The notes under the pieces: model-generated
What the model was told of the DNA's origin: nothing
What the model saw: the letters and a program-made list of their open reading frames with translations, nothing else
Databases searched by the model: none
Translations under genes and position numbers: made by a program
Virus record (IMG/VR): IMGVR_UViG_3300042905_003510
Coordinates: 1 to 25,688 of that record
DNA length: 25,688 nt
Reading direction: 5' to 3' (one strand)
From: a virus
Shown: piece by piece, positions 600-23,155 of the stretch
How the letters are laid out: the number at the start of each line of letters is the position of its first letter
How positions within the stretch are numbered: the first letter of the stretch is position 1

Positions 600-607
600 T
601 CCTTTCG

Positions 608-636
608 GCGCCGGCGTAAAATCCGGCGCTTTTAAT
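608..636 (+). terminator. GCGCCGG hairpin, copy 1
   Basis: GCGCCGG (608-614), an 8-nt loop and CCGGCGC (623-629) are followed by TTTTAAT. This is the first of five near-identical hairpins in the left operon. It lies 9 bp after the stop codon and looks like an intrinsic terminator or attenuator. Confidence 0.75.
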
Positions 637-2358: not shown

Positions 2359-3609
2359 ATGAGCATTTTAATTGAAACCTACTCGGAGAAAGCCATTAAA
2401 ATCTATGGCGACACCAAACCCCTAAAAGATACGCTGCGAAGCCTAGGGGCAAAGTATAACCCCTACTTAAAGGGCGGGCCGGGCTGGATTGCTTCAGCAA
2501 AAAAGCGCGAGACCTTTGAGGCAATTATCTACTCCGCACCCACCTCCGCACCTGTTACCCTCGCAACAGTTACAATGGAAGCGCTAAGCCATGACGCGCC
2601 TAAGGTAGTGGTCCAGGAAGCGCCGGCTATACCATCAACGCCACCAACCCCGCCACGTTCTAAGCGCTCCGCAAAGTTTGGAATTAAGGACTTGTTCAGG
2701 ATTTTACCGATAAGCAAGGCGGTACACTATGCAATCCTGGAGGGTAACGTGCTAAGCTATTTCTCAAAGATAGGGCCGGTGCACTACGAAATTGACGCCA
2801 CCTTTGACAAAGTAAGCATCGACGCCTCATTTATCAAAGATAATGGCATACCGGTAAGCATAGAGGACGGCACCGCCACCTTTGAGAACGGCATGAAGGC
2901 AGGCGCAACGCCCACCGACAGCGACTTTAATATCCCAAAGGAAGGCGAGCTACTTATCACCTCCGGCGCGCTTAGCGCCTTCGACACCCTCAAAACGTTC
3001 CTAGGAAAGGATGAGCTAAGACCGGTAATGACCGGCGCGTACTTTACTAAGGGTAAGATATGCGCCACCGACGCCCACCGTTTACGCGTCCTAGAGGCAC
3101 AATTTGAGAGCGAAGGGGTGATTCTATCAAAGGCAGCGCTTGAGCTTCTTAAATACTCCCAAATCAAAGGATATGACAGGTACGCCACCTTTGAGGATAT
3201 TGGGGTTACTTTGGGAGAGCAGTGGTTAATTGATGGAAGGTATCCAGACTTTAATGCAGTTATTCCAAATCCAGATAGCGCCACCTCGACCTTGACCTTC
3301 AGCAAAAAGGCGCTTCTACCTTTGCTAGAAAATGCCCTTAAAGCTGCGCACAAAGATACAAAGCTAGTGGTATTAACCTGCGATGGCGAAGGACTGAATG
3401 TAAGCGCCTCCGACCTTGACAGAGGCACGAACTTTGCCGCCACCGCACCCGCCTCCGGAAGTATTAAGATAGGGTATAACGCTGCGCAACTTATCGACGT
3501 GCTAAAGAGTATTGAGGCGGACGAGGTTACGATTCACTACTTTGGTGAGTCTAGGCCTTCGCTCTTTAACCTTACATCTTTGTTAATGCCTGTAATGATT
3601 GAGGCGTAA
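2359..3609 (+). CDS. Sliding-clamp (Pol III beta)-like protein with N-terminal accessory domain
   Basis: The 416-aa protein has three parts. Residues 1-58 form a small domain (KAIKIYGDTKPLKDTLRSLG, then NPYLKGGPGWI) of a type I associate with Bacteroidota phage and mobile-element proteins. Residues 60-105 form a Pro/Ala/Thr-rich linker. Residues about 108-416 resemble the DNA polymerase III beta clamp: LRPVMTGAYF and ATDAHRLRVL at 220-246, IDGRYPDFNAVIP at 291-303, and a C-terminal LLMPVMIEA like the conserved clamp end. The clamp part (about 310 aa) is shorter than the usual 366 aa. It probably tethers host or phage polymerase to DNA. The window holds a second clamp-like gene at 16478. Confidence 0.85.
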   Translation: MSILIETYSEKAIKIYGDTKPLKDTLRSLGAKYNPYLKGGPGWIASAKKRETFEAIIYSAPTSAPVTLATVTMEALSHDAPKVVVQEAPAIPSTPPTPPRSKRSAKFGIKDLFRILPISKAVHYAILEGNVLSYFSKIGPVHYEIDATFDKVSIDASFIKDNGIPVSIEDGTATFENGMKAGATPTDSDFNIPKEGELLITSGALSAFDTLKTFLGKDELRPVMTGAYFTKGKICATDAHRLRVLEAQFESEGVILSKAALELLKYSQIKGYDRYATFEDIGVTLGEQWLIDGRYPDFNAVIPNPDSATSTLTFSKKALLPLLENALKAAHKDTKLVVLTCDGEGLNVSASDLDRGTNFAATAPASGSIKIGYNAAQLIDVLKSIEADEVTIHYFGESRPSLFNLTSLLMPVMIEA

Positions 3610-3623
3610 TTTAATAACCTTCG

Positions 3624-3651
3624 GCGCCGGTGAAATATCCGGCGCTCTTTT
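3624..3651 (+). terminator. GCGCCGG hairpin, copy 4
   Basis: GCGCCGG (3624-3630), an 8-nt loop and CCGGCGC (3639-3645) are followed by TCTTTTTC, the best U-tract of the five copies. It lies after the clamp-like gene. Confidence 0.8.
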
Positions 3652-3672
3652 TCAAACCTTAAATAAATAACC

Positions 3673-3876
3673 ATGAAGAACTATATTATTAAAACCTACA
3701 TCGAGCTTATCCCCACCACCGAAATAGGGCCGGACGGTATGTTTATTGAAAAACCGGTTCACAAAAAAGCCCTTTGCGACCTTGAAGGAACAATAATAAA
3801 GGACGACATTAAAACCTCTATTCCTGATGGACTTTACAGAGACCAACCCTCAATTCAAAAAATAATTAACTCTTGA
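3673..3876 (+). CDS. Hypothetical protein, 67 aa
   Basis: This short soluble protein of unknown family is rich in Ile, Lys and Pro (YIELIPTTEIGPDGMFIEKP). It starts 27 bp after the preceding hairpin and ends 4 bp before the RadC-like gene, so the two are probably co-translated. The minus-strand frame over it is a shadow. Confidence 0.6.
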   Translation: MKNYIIKTYIELIPTTEIGPDGMFIEKPVHKKALCDLEGTIIKDDIKTSIPDGLYRDQPSIQKIINS

Positions 3877-4321: not shown

Positions 4322-4552
4322 ATGACACGAACTATTAAATTAACAGAAGAACAATTTGCTTTATTGCAACAGGCTTTAGGCATTGCAGAGCGTCAATTCT
4401 CAACCCTGCATAAGCAGATAATTGAAACGACCGTAAACGTGCGGAAGTTTACAAGGCCGGAGCAAACTAAAATAGCAAACTACTACCACGTGAAAGCCTG
4501 CGAGTTTGCAGACCTGAACATTGATTTAAGCAACCTCAACCTTGATGTATAA
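4322..4552 (+). CDS. Hypothetical helical protein, 76 aa
   Basis: A small, probably all-helical protein with an N-terminal LTEEQFALLQQALGIAERQF segment and an Asn/Leu/Asp-rich tail. The family is unrecognised. It starts 12 bp after the RadC-like gene behind a CCCTTAACACC leader and ends directly before hairpin copy 5. Confidence 0.65.
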   Translation: MTRTIKLTEEQFALLQQALGIAERQFSTLHKQIIETTVNVRKFTRPEQTKIANYYHVKACEFADLNIDLSNLNLDV

Positions 4553-4558
4553 CCTTCG

Positions 4559-4584
4559 GCGCCGGTACCCATTCCGGCGCTTTA
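4559..4584 (+). terminator. GCGCCGG hairpin, copy 5
   Basis: GCGCCGG (4559-4565), an 8-nt loop and CCGGCGC (4574-4580) are followed by TTTATTC. This is the last copy of this hairpin family in the left operon. Confidence 0.75.
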
Positions 4585-7383: not shown

Positions 7384-7839
7384 ATGACATTTAAAAAACT
7401 TTTAATCAAATTAGACGCTTGCGAAGAAGCAAGAGAATGGGCAAGAGATATGCCTATCGAAGAAATAGTTTCAACCTGCCACCGAGGAGATTGGTTGCTG
7501 TGGCTTGCCAAAAAAGTTGATGTAGATTTACGCCTTCGCACGTTGGCGAAAGGGCATTGTGCAAACACAGTTAGGCACTTAATGAAAGACGAGCGAAGTA
7601 TAAAAGCTGTTGATGTGGCTATTGCGTTTGGTGAAGGCAAAGCTACTCGTGAAGAGTTAGATGCTGCTGCTTATGCTGCTGTTGCTGCTGTTGCTGCTGC
7701 TGCTGGTGCTGCCGCTGCTGCTTATGCTGCTGCTGGTGCTGCTTATGCTGCTGTTGCCGCCAACCGCCAACAAGCAGCCGACATCTGCCGAAAGTATATC
7801 GGTGAAGCCTTAATCGAAAAAGTAAATCAATTACTATGA
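7384..7839 (+). CDS. Ala-rich protein resembling putative Imm5-like family, 151 aa
   Basis: Residues 1-90 carry a helical segment with a RGDWLLWLA motif (34-42). It is followed by an Ala-rich region (94-126) with repeated AAYAA and AAVAA units and a final helix. The combination of DWLLWLA and an Ala repeat resembles proteins annotated in many bacteria and phages as putative immunity protein-like; the name is historical and no function is proven. The Ala region is encoded by near-perfect GCT repeats. The gene overlaps the next by 4 bp (ATGA). Confidence 0.65.
   Translation: MTFKKLLIKLDACEEAREWARDMPIEEIVSTCHRGDWLLWLAKKVDVDLRLRTLAKGHCANTVRHLMKDERSIKAVDVAIAFGEGKATREELDAAAYAAVAAVAAAAGAAAAAYAAAGAAYAAVAANRQQAADICRKYIGEALIEKVNQLL
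7661..7760 (+). repeat. GCT trinucleotide-rich tract within Ala-rich gene
   Basis: About 100 bp are built from GCT codons with interspersed GTT, GGT, TAT and GCC, in frame with the Ala-rich protein. The repeat is imperfect but low in complexity, so slippage could change the length of the Ala stretch. Confidence 0.8.
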
Positions 7840-8234
7840 CAGAAAGTGGAATGCCAATAGGCAGAAATTTAGAAGCAATACGCAAGGCTCGTGGGCTTAC
7901 CCTCAAAGAGCTTGACTATTCCTCCGGCCCGCGCATCGAAAAGGGCAAGGACGTAACAGTAAACCTCATATCCCGATACATGAAGGCTATGGGCGTAGGT
8001 GTAGAGTTTAAGATTAAGTTCCGAGGCTCCTACACACCAAGCACCGACAACCCTTTCCTGGAAGTTATCCGCTACGCTATGGTGGCGAAGAAGGTAAAGG
8101 TTGCCCAGATTGCGAACCTCGCCGATATGTCCTACGACAAACTCTTCCGTATTCATGGAGGGTATCGCCCTATGCGAATCAAAGATTGTGAACGCATTTT
8201 TAAGCTATTAGGAATAACAACGAAGTTTATATGA
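7836..8234 (+). CDS. Tandem HTH DNA-binding protein, 132 aa
   Basis: Residues about 9-60 form an Xre-like helix-turn-helix domain (NLEAIRKARGLTLKELDYSS, then VNLISRYMKAMGV). Residues about 74-126 look like a second HTH (FLEVIRYAMVAKKVKVAQIA, then MRIKDCERIFKLLGI). Two domains in one chain suggest binding to a long or repeated operator. It is the third HTH-type candidate among the regulators of this window, and lies early in the central operon. It overlaps genes on both sides by 4 bp. Confidence 0.7.
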   Translation: MTESGMPIGRNLEAIRKARGLTLKELDYSSGPRIEKGKDVTVNLISRYMKAMGVGVEFKIKFRGSYTPSTDNPFLEVIRYAMVAKKVKVAQIANLADMSYDKLFRIHGGYRPMRIKDCERIFKLLGITTKFI

Positions 8235-20939: not shown

Positions 20940-20949
20940 ACCTAAATCC

Positions 20950-20976
20950 GCCCCGGTGTAACAGCCGGGGCTTTTA
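20950..20976 (+). terminator. Intrinsic terminator after SSB-like gene
   Basis: GCCCCGG (20950-20956), an 8-nt loop and CCGGGGC (20965-20971) are followed by TTTTAT. The stem length and the 8-nt loop match the hairpins of the left operon, with a different sequence. Confidence 0.85.
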
Positions 20977-21189: not shown

Positions 21190-21684
21190 ATGAAGCCACT
21201 AATCGAAATCATAAACACTGACAACGAACCGAATATTATTGAGCAAATTATGACACATCAAGATTACATCAAAACAGAAAAATGGTTTGCATGGCATCCA
21301 GTAAAAACCGACAACAAAGGCTGGGTATGGCTTAATTTCGTAAACAGAACCATTGATGAAAGACCTTTGGTTTACTTAGGACTACACGCTGAATATTCTT
21401 ATACCAACAAACCCATGCAACAACAAATTAACTACTGCGACATCAAGGCCCTTGGCTTTACCGCCGAAGACGGCCACGACCAAGTGTTTGAAAATGTACA
21501 CGGCTACCCGTACACAATCTTCACCAAGATGCTTACGCCAACGCTGATGCTTGACTGGCGGCAAACAACACGGCTTTGCGAATTGCTGGTGATTCGCCAC
21601 GAAGATGGGCATATATTTGAACGCATCCCGATTGTGGATTTGGCGCATTTGCAAGCGATTGTTGATGCGTTTGCCCAGCGTTAA
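21190..21684 (+). CDS. Hypothetical protein, 164 aa
   Basis: ATG 21190 is chosen; the frame is open upstream only as a shadow of the preceding gene. The protein is soluble with many aromatic residues (EKWFAWHPVKTDNKGWVWLN, then LGLHAEYSYTN). The family is unrecognised. Its codon use is less GC-rich than the replication genes. Confidence 0.65.
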   Translation: MKPLIEIINTDNEPNIIEQIMTHQDYIKTEKWFAWHPVKTDNKGWVWLNFVNRTIDERPLVYLGLHAEYSYTNKPMQQQINYCDIKALGFTAEDGHDQVFENVHGYPYTIFTKMLTPTLMLDWRQTTRLCELLVIRHEDGHIFERIPIVDLAHLQAIVDAFAQR

Positions 21685-21782: not shown

Positions 21783-22055
21783 ATGTTTAAAGAGTACAGA
21801 AAAACAGCCACAGTAAAGGCCAAACTATTTGAAAAAGGTGATGAAGATGGTTTTGTTCACCGTGATGGTGTGCTTGGTGCTATGGAAGATGCTAAATACG
21901 GAACACAACCTAATTTAGTGCCATACATAAGCACATTAGAAAACCAATTTCATAAAGGTGAATTTGGTCAGCATTATGTTTGTGTTGGTGTAAAAGGCGA
22001 ACGCTGGCTTGTTGAAAAGTCAATATTTGAAGCTACTTACGAAGCAGTCAATTAG
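21783..22055 (+). CDS. Conserved phage-type hypothetical protein, 90 aa
   Basis: The C-terminus FGQHYVCVGVKGERWLVEKS, followed by IFEATYEAVN, resembles a small domain often found in phage proteins (GDWIITGVKGE...FEATY) of unknown function. ATG 21783 is preferred over a TTG nine bases upstream. It lies in a region of foreign-looking AT-rich genes. Confidence 0.65.
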   Translation: MFKEYRKTATVKAKLFEKGDEDGFVHRDGVLGAMEDAKYGTQPNLVPYISTLENQFHKGEFGQHYVCVGVKGERWLVEKSIFEATYEAVN

Positions 22056-22090
22056 CCTTGCGAATAAGTAACGCACCCACACCAATCAAT

Positions 22091-22126
22091 CCACACCTTT
22101 ACGAAACCAACAAAACAATTAATAAA
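22091..22126 (+). repeat. Intergenic repeat copy A (partial)
   Basis: CCACACCTTTAC at 22091-22102 is identical to copies B and C, and AAAACAATTAA at 22112-22122 is shared with copy B just before the following ATG. It separates two small genes. Confidence 0.6.
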
Positions 22127-22309
22127 ATGGAAGAAGAAGTACTGAAAGAGTTAATCAAAGAAATGGAGCTTAGGGCAGCATCATTTGAGTATAACCGTGA
22201 CTTGAATAAAGAAGTTGATGCACAGCATGGTTATTGGGACGGCAAACGTTCAGAAGCGCAATTTATGGTCGAAAAATTAACATATATTTTGGATAATGGT
22301 GGGCTTTAG
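22127..22309 (+). CDS. Hypothetical helical protein, 60 aa
   Basis: An acidic, helical protein (MEEEVLKELIKEMELRAASF, then KRSEAQFMVEKLTYIL). ATG 22127 is preferred to an upstream TTG because the repeat lies between them. The family is unknown. It is bounded by repeat copies A and B. Confidence 0.6.
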   Translation: MEEEVLKELIKEMELRAASFEYNRDLNKEVDAQHGYWDGKRSEAQFMVEKLTYILDNGGL

Positions 22310-22311
22310 GG

Positions 22312-22350
22312 AGTCAACCCACACCTTTACAAAATAACTAAAAAGTAAAC
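22312..22350 (+). repeat. Intergenic direct repeat copy B
   Basis: A 39-bp unit, AGTCAA, one variable base, CCACACCTTTAC, then AAAATAACTAAAAAGTAAAC. It differs from copy C at three positions. It lies 18 bp upstream of the P-loop gene. Confidence 0.85.
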
Positions 22351-22367
22351 CAATAAAACAATTAAAT

Positions 22368-23033
22368 ATGGAAGTTTATTTAGGACAAAAAGCAAGACAC
22401 AAAGACTTATGCGGAGGTAAGGAAACCTTTGAAGTCGTTGGTATCAAAAAGAATGAAGTATTGCTTGAAGGTGATTTTTCGGGCGGAACTCATAATGTAA
22501 AACAAGAAAGTTGGATACCCAAAAAAGGTTTGATTATACAAAATCGTTGGGGTGCTTGGATTGATGAAGAAACAGTTAGTGATTTTACGAAAAATGCTGG
22601 GCCGAGAGCGATGTTAGTGGCTGGCTTTCCTGGAACTGGTAAAACATCTTATTGCTACAGAGATGCTGATTATATGCCACAAGGATTTGCAACCGATAGC
22701 GATAGTAGTAAATTTGATAAGGCTAATTTTCCACAAAACTATATTGAGCATATCAAAGAAAAAATATCAGAAGGTTATGCAAGAATTTTTATTTCAAGCC
22801 ATAAAGAGGTTAGAGATGCTTTAGTAGAAAATGGATTAGAATTTACGTTAGTTTATCCAAAAAAGGAATTGAAAGAAGAATATTTGAAACGATATAAAGA
22901 AAGAGGTTCTACTGATGCTTTTATAAATCTTATTTCAAATAATTGGGATTTATGGCTTGATGAATTGAAAAATCAAAAAGGTTGTAAACATATAGAATTA
23001 GAAAGTGGTCAGTTTGTCGCTAACGTTTGTTAA
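22368..23033 (+). CDS. P-loop kinase-like protein, 221 aa
   Basis: Residues about 1-65 form a small beta-rich domain (VYLGQKARHKDLCGGKETFE). Residues about 80-221 contain Walker A GFPGTGKTS (86-94), DSDSSKFDKANFPQNYIEHI (110-129), FISSHKEVRDAL and LVYPKKELKEEYLKRY, and an RGSTDAFI segment that may be a lid. The order suggests a small-molecule or nucleotide kinase. The gene is AT-rich, lacks the TTCGGCG motif and is flanked by 39-bp direct repeats (B and C), suggesting an acquired cassette. Confidence 0.7.
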   Translation: MEVYLGQKARHKDLCGGKETFEVVGIKKNEVLLEGDFSGGTHNVKQESWIPKKGLIIQNRWGAWIDEETVSDFTKNAGPRAMLVAGFPGTGKTSYCYRDADYMPQGFATDSDSSKFDKANFPQNYIEHIKEKISEGYARIFISSHKEVRDALVENGLEFTLVYPKKELKEEYLKRYKERGSTDAFINLISNNWDLWLDELKNQKGCKHIELESGQFVANVC

Positions 23034-23063
23034 GCTTGCCACTAACTAATGTATAGGCGAAAC

Positions 23064-23102
23064 AGTCAAGCCACACCTTTACAAAATGACTGAAAAGTAA
23101 AC
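23064..23102 (+). repeat. Intergenic direct repeat copy C
   Basis: A 39-bp unit matching copy B at 36 of 39 positions (AGTCAA, CCACACCTTTAC, AAAATGACTGAAAAGTAAAC). It lies downstream of the P-loop gene, so B and C bracket that gene. Confidence 0.85.
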
Positions 23103-23133: not shown

Positions 23134-23155
23134 AGCCCCTACCTTGGGGCTTTTT
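23134..23155 (+). terminator. Intrinsic terminator
   Basis: AGCCCC (23134-23139), a 6-nt loop and GGGGCT (23146-23151) are followed by TTTTATT. It separates the repeat-bounded genes from the gene at 23170. Confidence 0.8.

Follow-up and report, generated by a model that had tools for sequence, protein, structure and literature searches.

Mobile regulatory cassettes of T4-type phages (PeSLs) consist of a regulatory stem-loop with an early promoter, located between exchangeable early genes. The system described here is similar in that a common regulatory leader stands beside exchangeable early genes, but this leader has no stable stem-loop and site-specific cassette ends are present too. It also resembles the classical integron, as found in Vibrio phage Va_90-11-286_p16 (MK672802), by the G|TT and AA|C boundaries (AA|CA...CG|TT when the boundary bases are read from the classical side), by the complementary ends of the cassette body and by the position of attI beside the recombinase. 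The two differ by the extra domain of the classical integrase IntI, which the recombinase described here lacks, and by the direction of the ORFs, which face away from the integrase in classical integrons but towards the recombinase in our phages.

Qi et al. (2023; PMC9892861) described CALINs of virulent phages, Polaribacter phage P12002L among them; one attC site of P12002L recombined with IntI1, and the divergent attC directions of this phage were ascribed to mosaicism. Such CALINs, attC-bearing phage cassettes without an integrase, are similar to the situation studied here, and in our own reading of the P12002L sequence its cassettes show the same inverted ends. The text of that article, as consulted here, reports no dedicated non-IntI recombinase and does not mention the Freya phages. 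In the Polaribacter phages Freya and Leef, an integrase adjoins the same kind of array. Bartlau et al. (2021; PMC8776804) took this integrase to indicate a temperate lifestyle, and nowhere does their text use “integron,” “cassette,” or “deletion.” Integrons are considered rare in Bacteroidetes, for which a 2022 survey (PMC9024848) names a single complete one, in Salinibacter.

We analysed a stretch of 25,688 nt (positions 1-25,688 of record IMGVR_UViG_3300042905_003510), hereafter the window, in which all features of the accessory slot are given on the plus strand. The reading that we favour, with a probability of roughly 0.8, is that of a hotspot with a captured integron-type cassette belonging to a system with a non-IntI recombinase, the window phage being a recombinase-less remnant.

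An Accessory Slot Variable Among Related Phages

The slot between gene A (21190..21684) and a terminator hairpin followed by a U tail (23134..23151) is an accessory-gene hotspot of one group of Bacteroidota phages, every contig of which is metagenomic. Related phages were gathered by scanning for the core of the repeat described below, and the slot was read from gene A, which precedes it in these phages, to the terminator, which is conserved in them. The initial annotation had noted here a resemblance to modular gene insertion, to be checked by searching relatives for empty or swapped sites. We indeed found one empty slot with a single repeat and no gene (L015), and other genes in the slot of several relatives: an HNH gene (L001 and L003), a small gene with an HNH gene (L019), a different small gene (L023), gene C with a 151-aa gene (L032), genes B and Y (L044) and gene C with two other genes (L047, with flanks 97.7% identical to those of the window). 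Gene C was alone in the slot of L013 and L041. The relatives thus do not all carry the same gene set. An independent 4-kb record (L017) carries the locus of the window at 99.95% identity, and the locus is therefore no assembly error.

In the window, the slot contains gene B (21783..22055), an accessory gene with a weak PHROG 419 match and decayed cassette ends, whose right end is still GCACATAACTAATGTATAGGCG in L044; gene C (22127..22309), an accessory gene of 60 aa that moves with its leader; and the P-loop gene. Gene C and the P-loop gene had been noted as AT-rich; G+C is 31% in the P-loop cassette body and 38% in the preceding domain and gene C, against 43% in the window. Strong GC hairpins lie between genes elsewhere in the window (600-632, 1670-1702, 2278-2310, 3616-3648, 4551-4583, and 20942-20974); this intergenic family, probably of terminators, is absent from the accessory slot. 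A GCT-rich run at 7642-7777 encodes a poly-alanine stretch within the ORF 7384-7839.

The P-Loop Gene as a Fused Cassette Body

The P-loop ORF is an in-frame fusion with its junction at 22613/22614 (GCGATG|TTAGTGGC). Its N-terminal part (22368..22610) corresponds to a separate 81-aa phage protein (L084): in tblastn searches residues 1-80 alone matched this protein, homologues from other phages matched nothing but residues 80-221, and the L084 ORF ends in TKNAGPRD* where the window reads TKNAGPRA-MLVAG. The remainder is a cassette body with a P-loop NTPase domain (22614..23045), starting with TTAGTGGC and ending with GCCACTAA, with G|TTAGTGGC and GCCACTAA|C (at 23045) as mobile boundaries. Its last 8 bases (23038-23045) are the reverse complement of its first 8 from 22614; in phage arrays, reverse-complementary body ends at G|TT and AA|C extend over 8-9 nt.

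The same body was present between unrelated flanks in seven other phage stretches (L068, L069, L072, L073, L074, L076, and L077), with unrelated DNA past AA|C and, in most of them, an attC-like hairpin ahead of the body. Between L073 and L074, body and attC hairpin are alike whereas the DNA beyond both ends differs. Since the body stands alone with other flanks elsewhere, the in-frame fusion arose secondarily in the window phage. The complete attC hairpin of the cassette was not found in the window, although in L072-L077 this body does have one. As the window has neither a full attC nor a recombinase, the identity of its cassette depends on the two ends and on the relatives. In all likelihood, what lies between the repeats is the gene-bearing body of an integron-type cassette that is mobile among phages of Bacteroidota bacteria.

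Immediately to the right lies a recurring flank, CTAATGTATAGGCGAAACAG (23046..23065), attI-like or marking the end of an array, which occurs in 15 viral contig stretches after differing xxxTAA ends and occupies the position that, in full arrays, belongs to the attI-like site next to the recombinase. In the window phage the right boundary and the attI-like flank are intact, but the left attC has been lost and the body is fused to an unrelated ORF. We had considered CTAATGTATAGGCG as half of an attC and dropped this possibility, its position matching attI in full arrays; judged by that position, it would represent the attI.

The predicted structure of the P-loop domain (mean pLDDT 87.5) is weakly similar to nucleoside-monophosphate and polyphosphate kinases (TM near 0.5); a single-sequence fold of the full ORF was too poor in quality to be used. 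The body was found in none of 296 Flavobacteriales genomes, in a search run without a positive control. Distant relatives of the domain (47% identity) occur in T5-like phages of Salmonella and Escherichia (e.g., MK947459, 94780-95235), where the features at these places bear capsid and scaffold protein annotations.

Leader Repeats

The two 39-bp direct repeats with three differences reported by the initial annotation were recovered at the same positions: the copies at 22312-22350 and 23064-23102 share 36/39 bases in a repeat comparison, the latter corresponding to the sole copy at the empty site. Allowing up to 3 mismatches, the pattern occurs at 2 places in the window, both known copies, and at none in 100 shuffles. 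The third, partial copy noted ahead of gene C, delimited here as 22084-22128, does share the core CCACACCTTTAC but is just 64% identical to a full copy. Leaders stand immediately ahead of accessory genes, and in L044 the leader continues directly into the start codon of gene Y. We detected no stable RNA fold of the repeat by fold prediction, no stem-loop with an early promoter of the PeSL kind, and no promoter-like excess over shuffles in a scan limited to the sigma-70 type. A tiny ORF, e.g., ATG ACT AAA AAG TAA, is frequent in leader copies (22334-22348 and 23086-23100 in the window), although ATA replaces its ATG in the first copy of the window.

In a rival explanation, the genes would be moved by nothing but homologous recombination between leader repeats, as has been proposed for the promoter stem-loop cassettes of T4-type phages. 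The leader copies bound gene C, gene Y and the HNH gene, and the block formed by the leader and gene C is shared at 96% identity with an unrelated 118-kb phage (L011), where it has another context. However, the P-loop body, the L023 gene, gene X of L047 and the L019 gene have self-complementary TT...AA ends that are not leader edges, and the P-loop body occurs in leader-less phages, which refutes the leaders as sole cause for the P-loop gene. We thus consider this explanation improbable for the locus as a whole. The insertion is modular, as initially annotated, but the mobile boundaries of the P-loop gene lie inside the repeat interval. We read the repeats as a 5′ leader travelling with accessory genes rather than as recombination sites of the P-loop gene. 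This leader would form a second layer, probably serving both expression and homologous exchange, and gene C is likely to be exchanged via homology between leaders.

attC-Like Sites

The arrays gave 81 candidate attC sites. All 44 sites of typical length begin with CG and end with TG. The arms of 54 non-redundant sites covary: Watson-Crick pairs make up 59%, whereas shuffled partners give 35% (maximum 40%) and shifted registers 20-44%. Two non-pairs, C-A and G-T, are conserved. Every unit would comprise an imperfect attC-like hairpin, about 120 nt long, and a gene body with mutually reverse-complementary ends, and folded single-stranded attC may be the substrate of recombination. A model built from the 44 typical-length sites (R1) yielded 59 further matches in chromosomal loci, but did not match anything in two classical integron phages or in the window. 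Rfam scans revealed no known attC-like RNA.

Several loci deserve separate mention. In the 118-kb phage L060, a cassette with an attC match (7952-8180) lacks a clear ORF, and ARAGORN gives no tRNA in its tRNA-like 3′ part; the same record carries a group I intron (3473-3709; Rfam RF00028). Two adjoining cassettes of L057 (4170-5408) both have the same attI-like flank and terminator behind them, which gives the impression of a duplication of the entire platform. In Flavobacterium sp. 7A (L088, near 2414, reverse strand), the attI-like sequence precedes a DNA methylase operon, with no recombinase nearby.

A Dedicated Xer-Like Recombinase

The statement that no recombinase is visible holds for the window, where neither a tyrosine (PF00589) nor a serine recombinase (PF00239) was detected, and none adjoins an array in the phage group of the window; it does not extend to other phages and to host chromosomes, in which a dedicated one is present. 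The L072 contig encodes one tyrosine recombinase directly after four cassettes, and relatives of this protein were found in 19 further loci. It is a Xer-like protein of 267 aa, encoded right after cassette arrays. Automatic detection placed a self-complementary cassette end directly ahead of the recombinase in 14 of 17 tested loci, and in 16 of these 17 phage loci once two start codons set too late were corrected, compared to 13 of 422 control windows. The distance from this end to the recombinase start codon is mostly 53-54 bases. Counting against the model, the recombinase locus L110 has no 8-nt pair.

The solved structures nearest to the recombinase are XerA and XerD. TIGR02249 (IntI) gave a split match of 139.6 bits, for a cut-off of 265, and the IntI-specific insertion is absent in the alignment. 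In a strict search without positive control, no IntI exceeded this cut-off in the phage records or in 396 Flavobacteriales genomes. In our tree, in which several deep joins involve long branches, the phage recombinases formed a group together with a single phage-type copy from a chromosome and another chromosomal row, and the IntI controls formed a separate branch. The Freya recombinase, 34% identical to the query, branched apart, which counts against the model.

We infer from these sequences that recombinases of the L072 family catalyse cassette exchange. A Xer-like, non-IntI tyrosine recombinase would adjoin the attI-like site and exchange units at the boundary AA|C (phage ORF strand). As the window phage has no recombinase, movement of its cassette must occur in trans, and we assume that the cassette arrived by such a supply.

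Cassette Orientation in Phages and Host Chromosomes

The longest ORF faced the recombinase in 59/59 phage cassettes, none of which thus has its ORF in the attC direction and away from attI, whereas it faced away in 53/57 chromosomal cassettes. An independent count between attC model hits on chromosomes gave 33/36 facing away. The polarity of attC relative to the recombinase is identical in phages and chromosomes; loci with a single cassette provide no polarity test on their own. We had supposed ORFs to be inverted in all arrays of the family, an idea dropped because chromosomal ORFs face away. In phages, each ORF is inverted relative to attC, reading towards the recombinase and with the phage operon, whereas the ORFs of host chromosomes read away from the recombinase, like those of classical integrons.

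The recombinase was detected in 85 of 396 Flavobacteriales genomes (threshold E 1e-45). Sites of the attC type were present in 141/392 genomes overall, that is, in 72/85 recombinase-bearing genomes versus 69/307 others (p = 7e-26). Chromosomal arrays adjoining the recombinase gene contain up to 12 cassettes. Among the cargo of the phage arrays are methylases for cytosine and for adenine as well as a Mom protein, a set that suggests a role in counter-defence. It appears rather probable to us that Bacteroidota phages and their hosts share one class of integrons with a Xer-like recombinase devoid of the IntI domain, and that the phages maintain a distinct inverted-ORF pool, rich in genes for DNA modification and serving as exchangeable accessory genes, from which recombinase-less phages like that of the window borrow in trans.

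Natural Cassette Losses or Gains in Freya Phages

The near-identical Polaribacter phages Freya_1, 2, 5, 8, and 10 were isolated on one host. The differences between Freya_1, 2, 5, and 8 on one side and Freya_10 on the other correspond to whole cassettes cleanly lost or gained. Each junction lies at AAC, and the attC retained is the one predicted by an AA|C cut. Site-specific gain or loss of cassettes was thus observed as natural variation rather than in an assay.

Plain leader duplication combined with illegitimate phage mosaicism, without any site-specific system, would agree with the fusion junction at 22613, which looks illegitimate, just CGATG being left of the attC. It is disfavoured by the exact recurring boundaries, the covarying arms, the recombinase linkage and the Freya losses, as well as by the control rates (13/422 for cassette ends, and the shuffled-arm pairing), and we regard it as very unlikely. 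Least credible of all is an insertion driven by an HNH homing endonuclease, whose gene (Pfam HNH, 3.9e-07) does occur in the slot of L001, L003, and L019, placed within the leader tail, but is missing from most slot variants, the cassette ends being moreover unlike homing sites.

Discussion

The integron-type system favoured here would be an integron variant whose recombinase differs from the integron integrase known so far and whose phage ORFs are reversed, a variant that seems little recognised in the literature that we searched. If our interpretation is correct, Flavobacteriales commonly harbour integron-like systems, which searches relying on IntI have probably overlooked. The extra domain of IntI would then seem unneeded for attC-type cassettes, and phages would have a dedicated route for swapping genes. 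As the Freya phages are isolated, this mechanism is directly testable. In L096, L098, and L100, phage cassettes carry genes for DNA methylases of the C5 and N6/N4 types, for Mom and for a protein resembling PAPS reductase.
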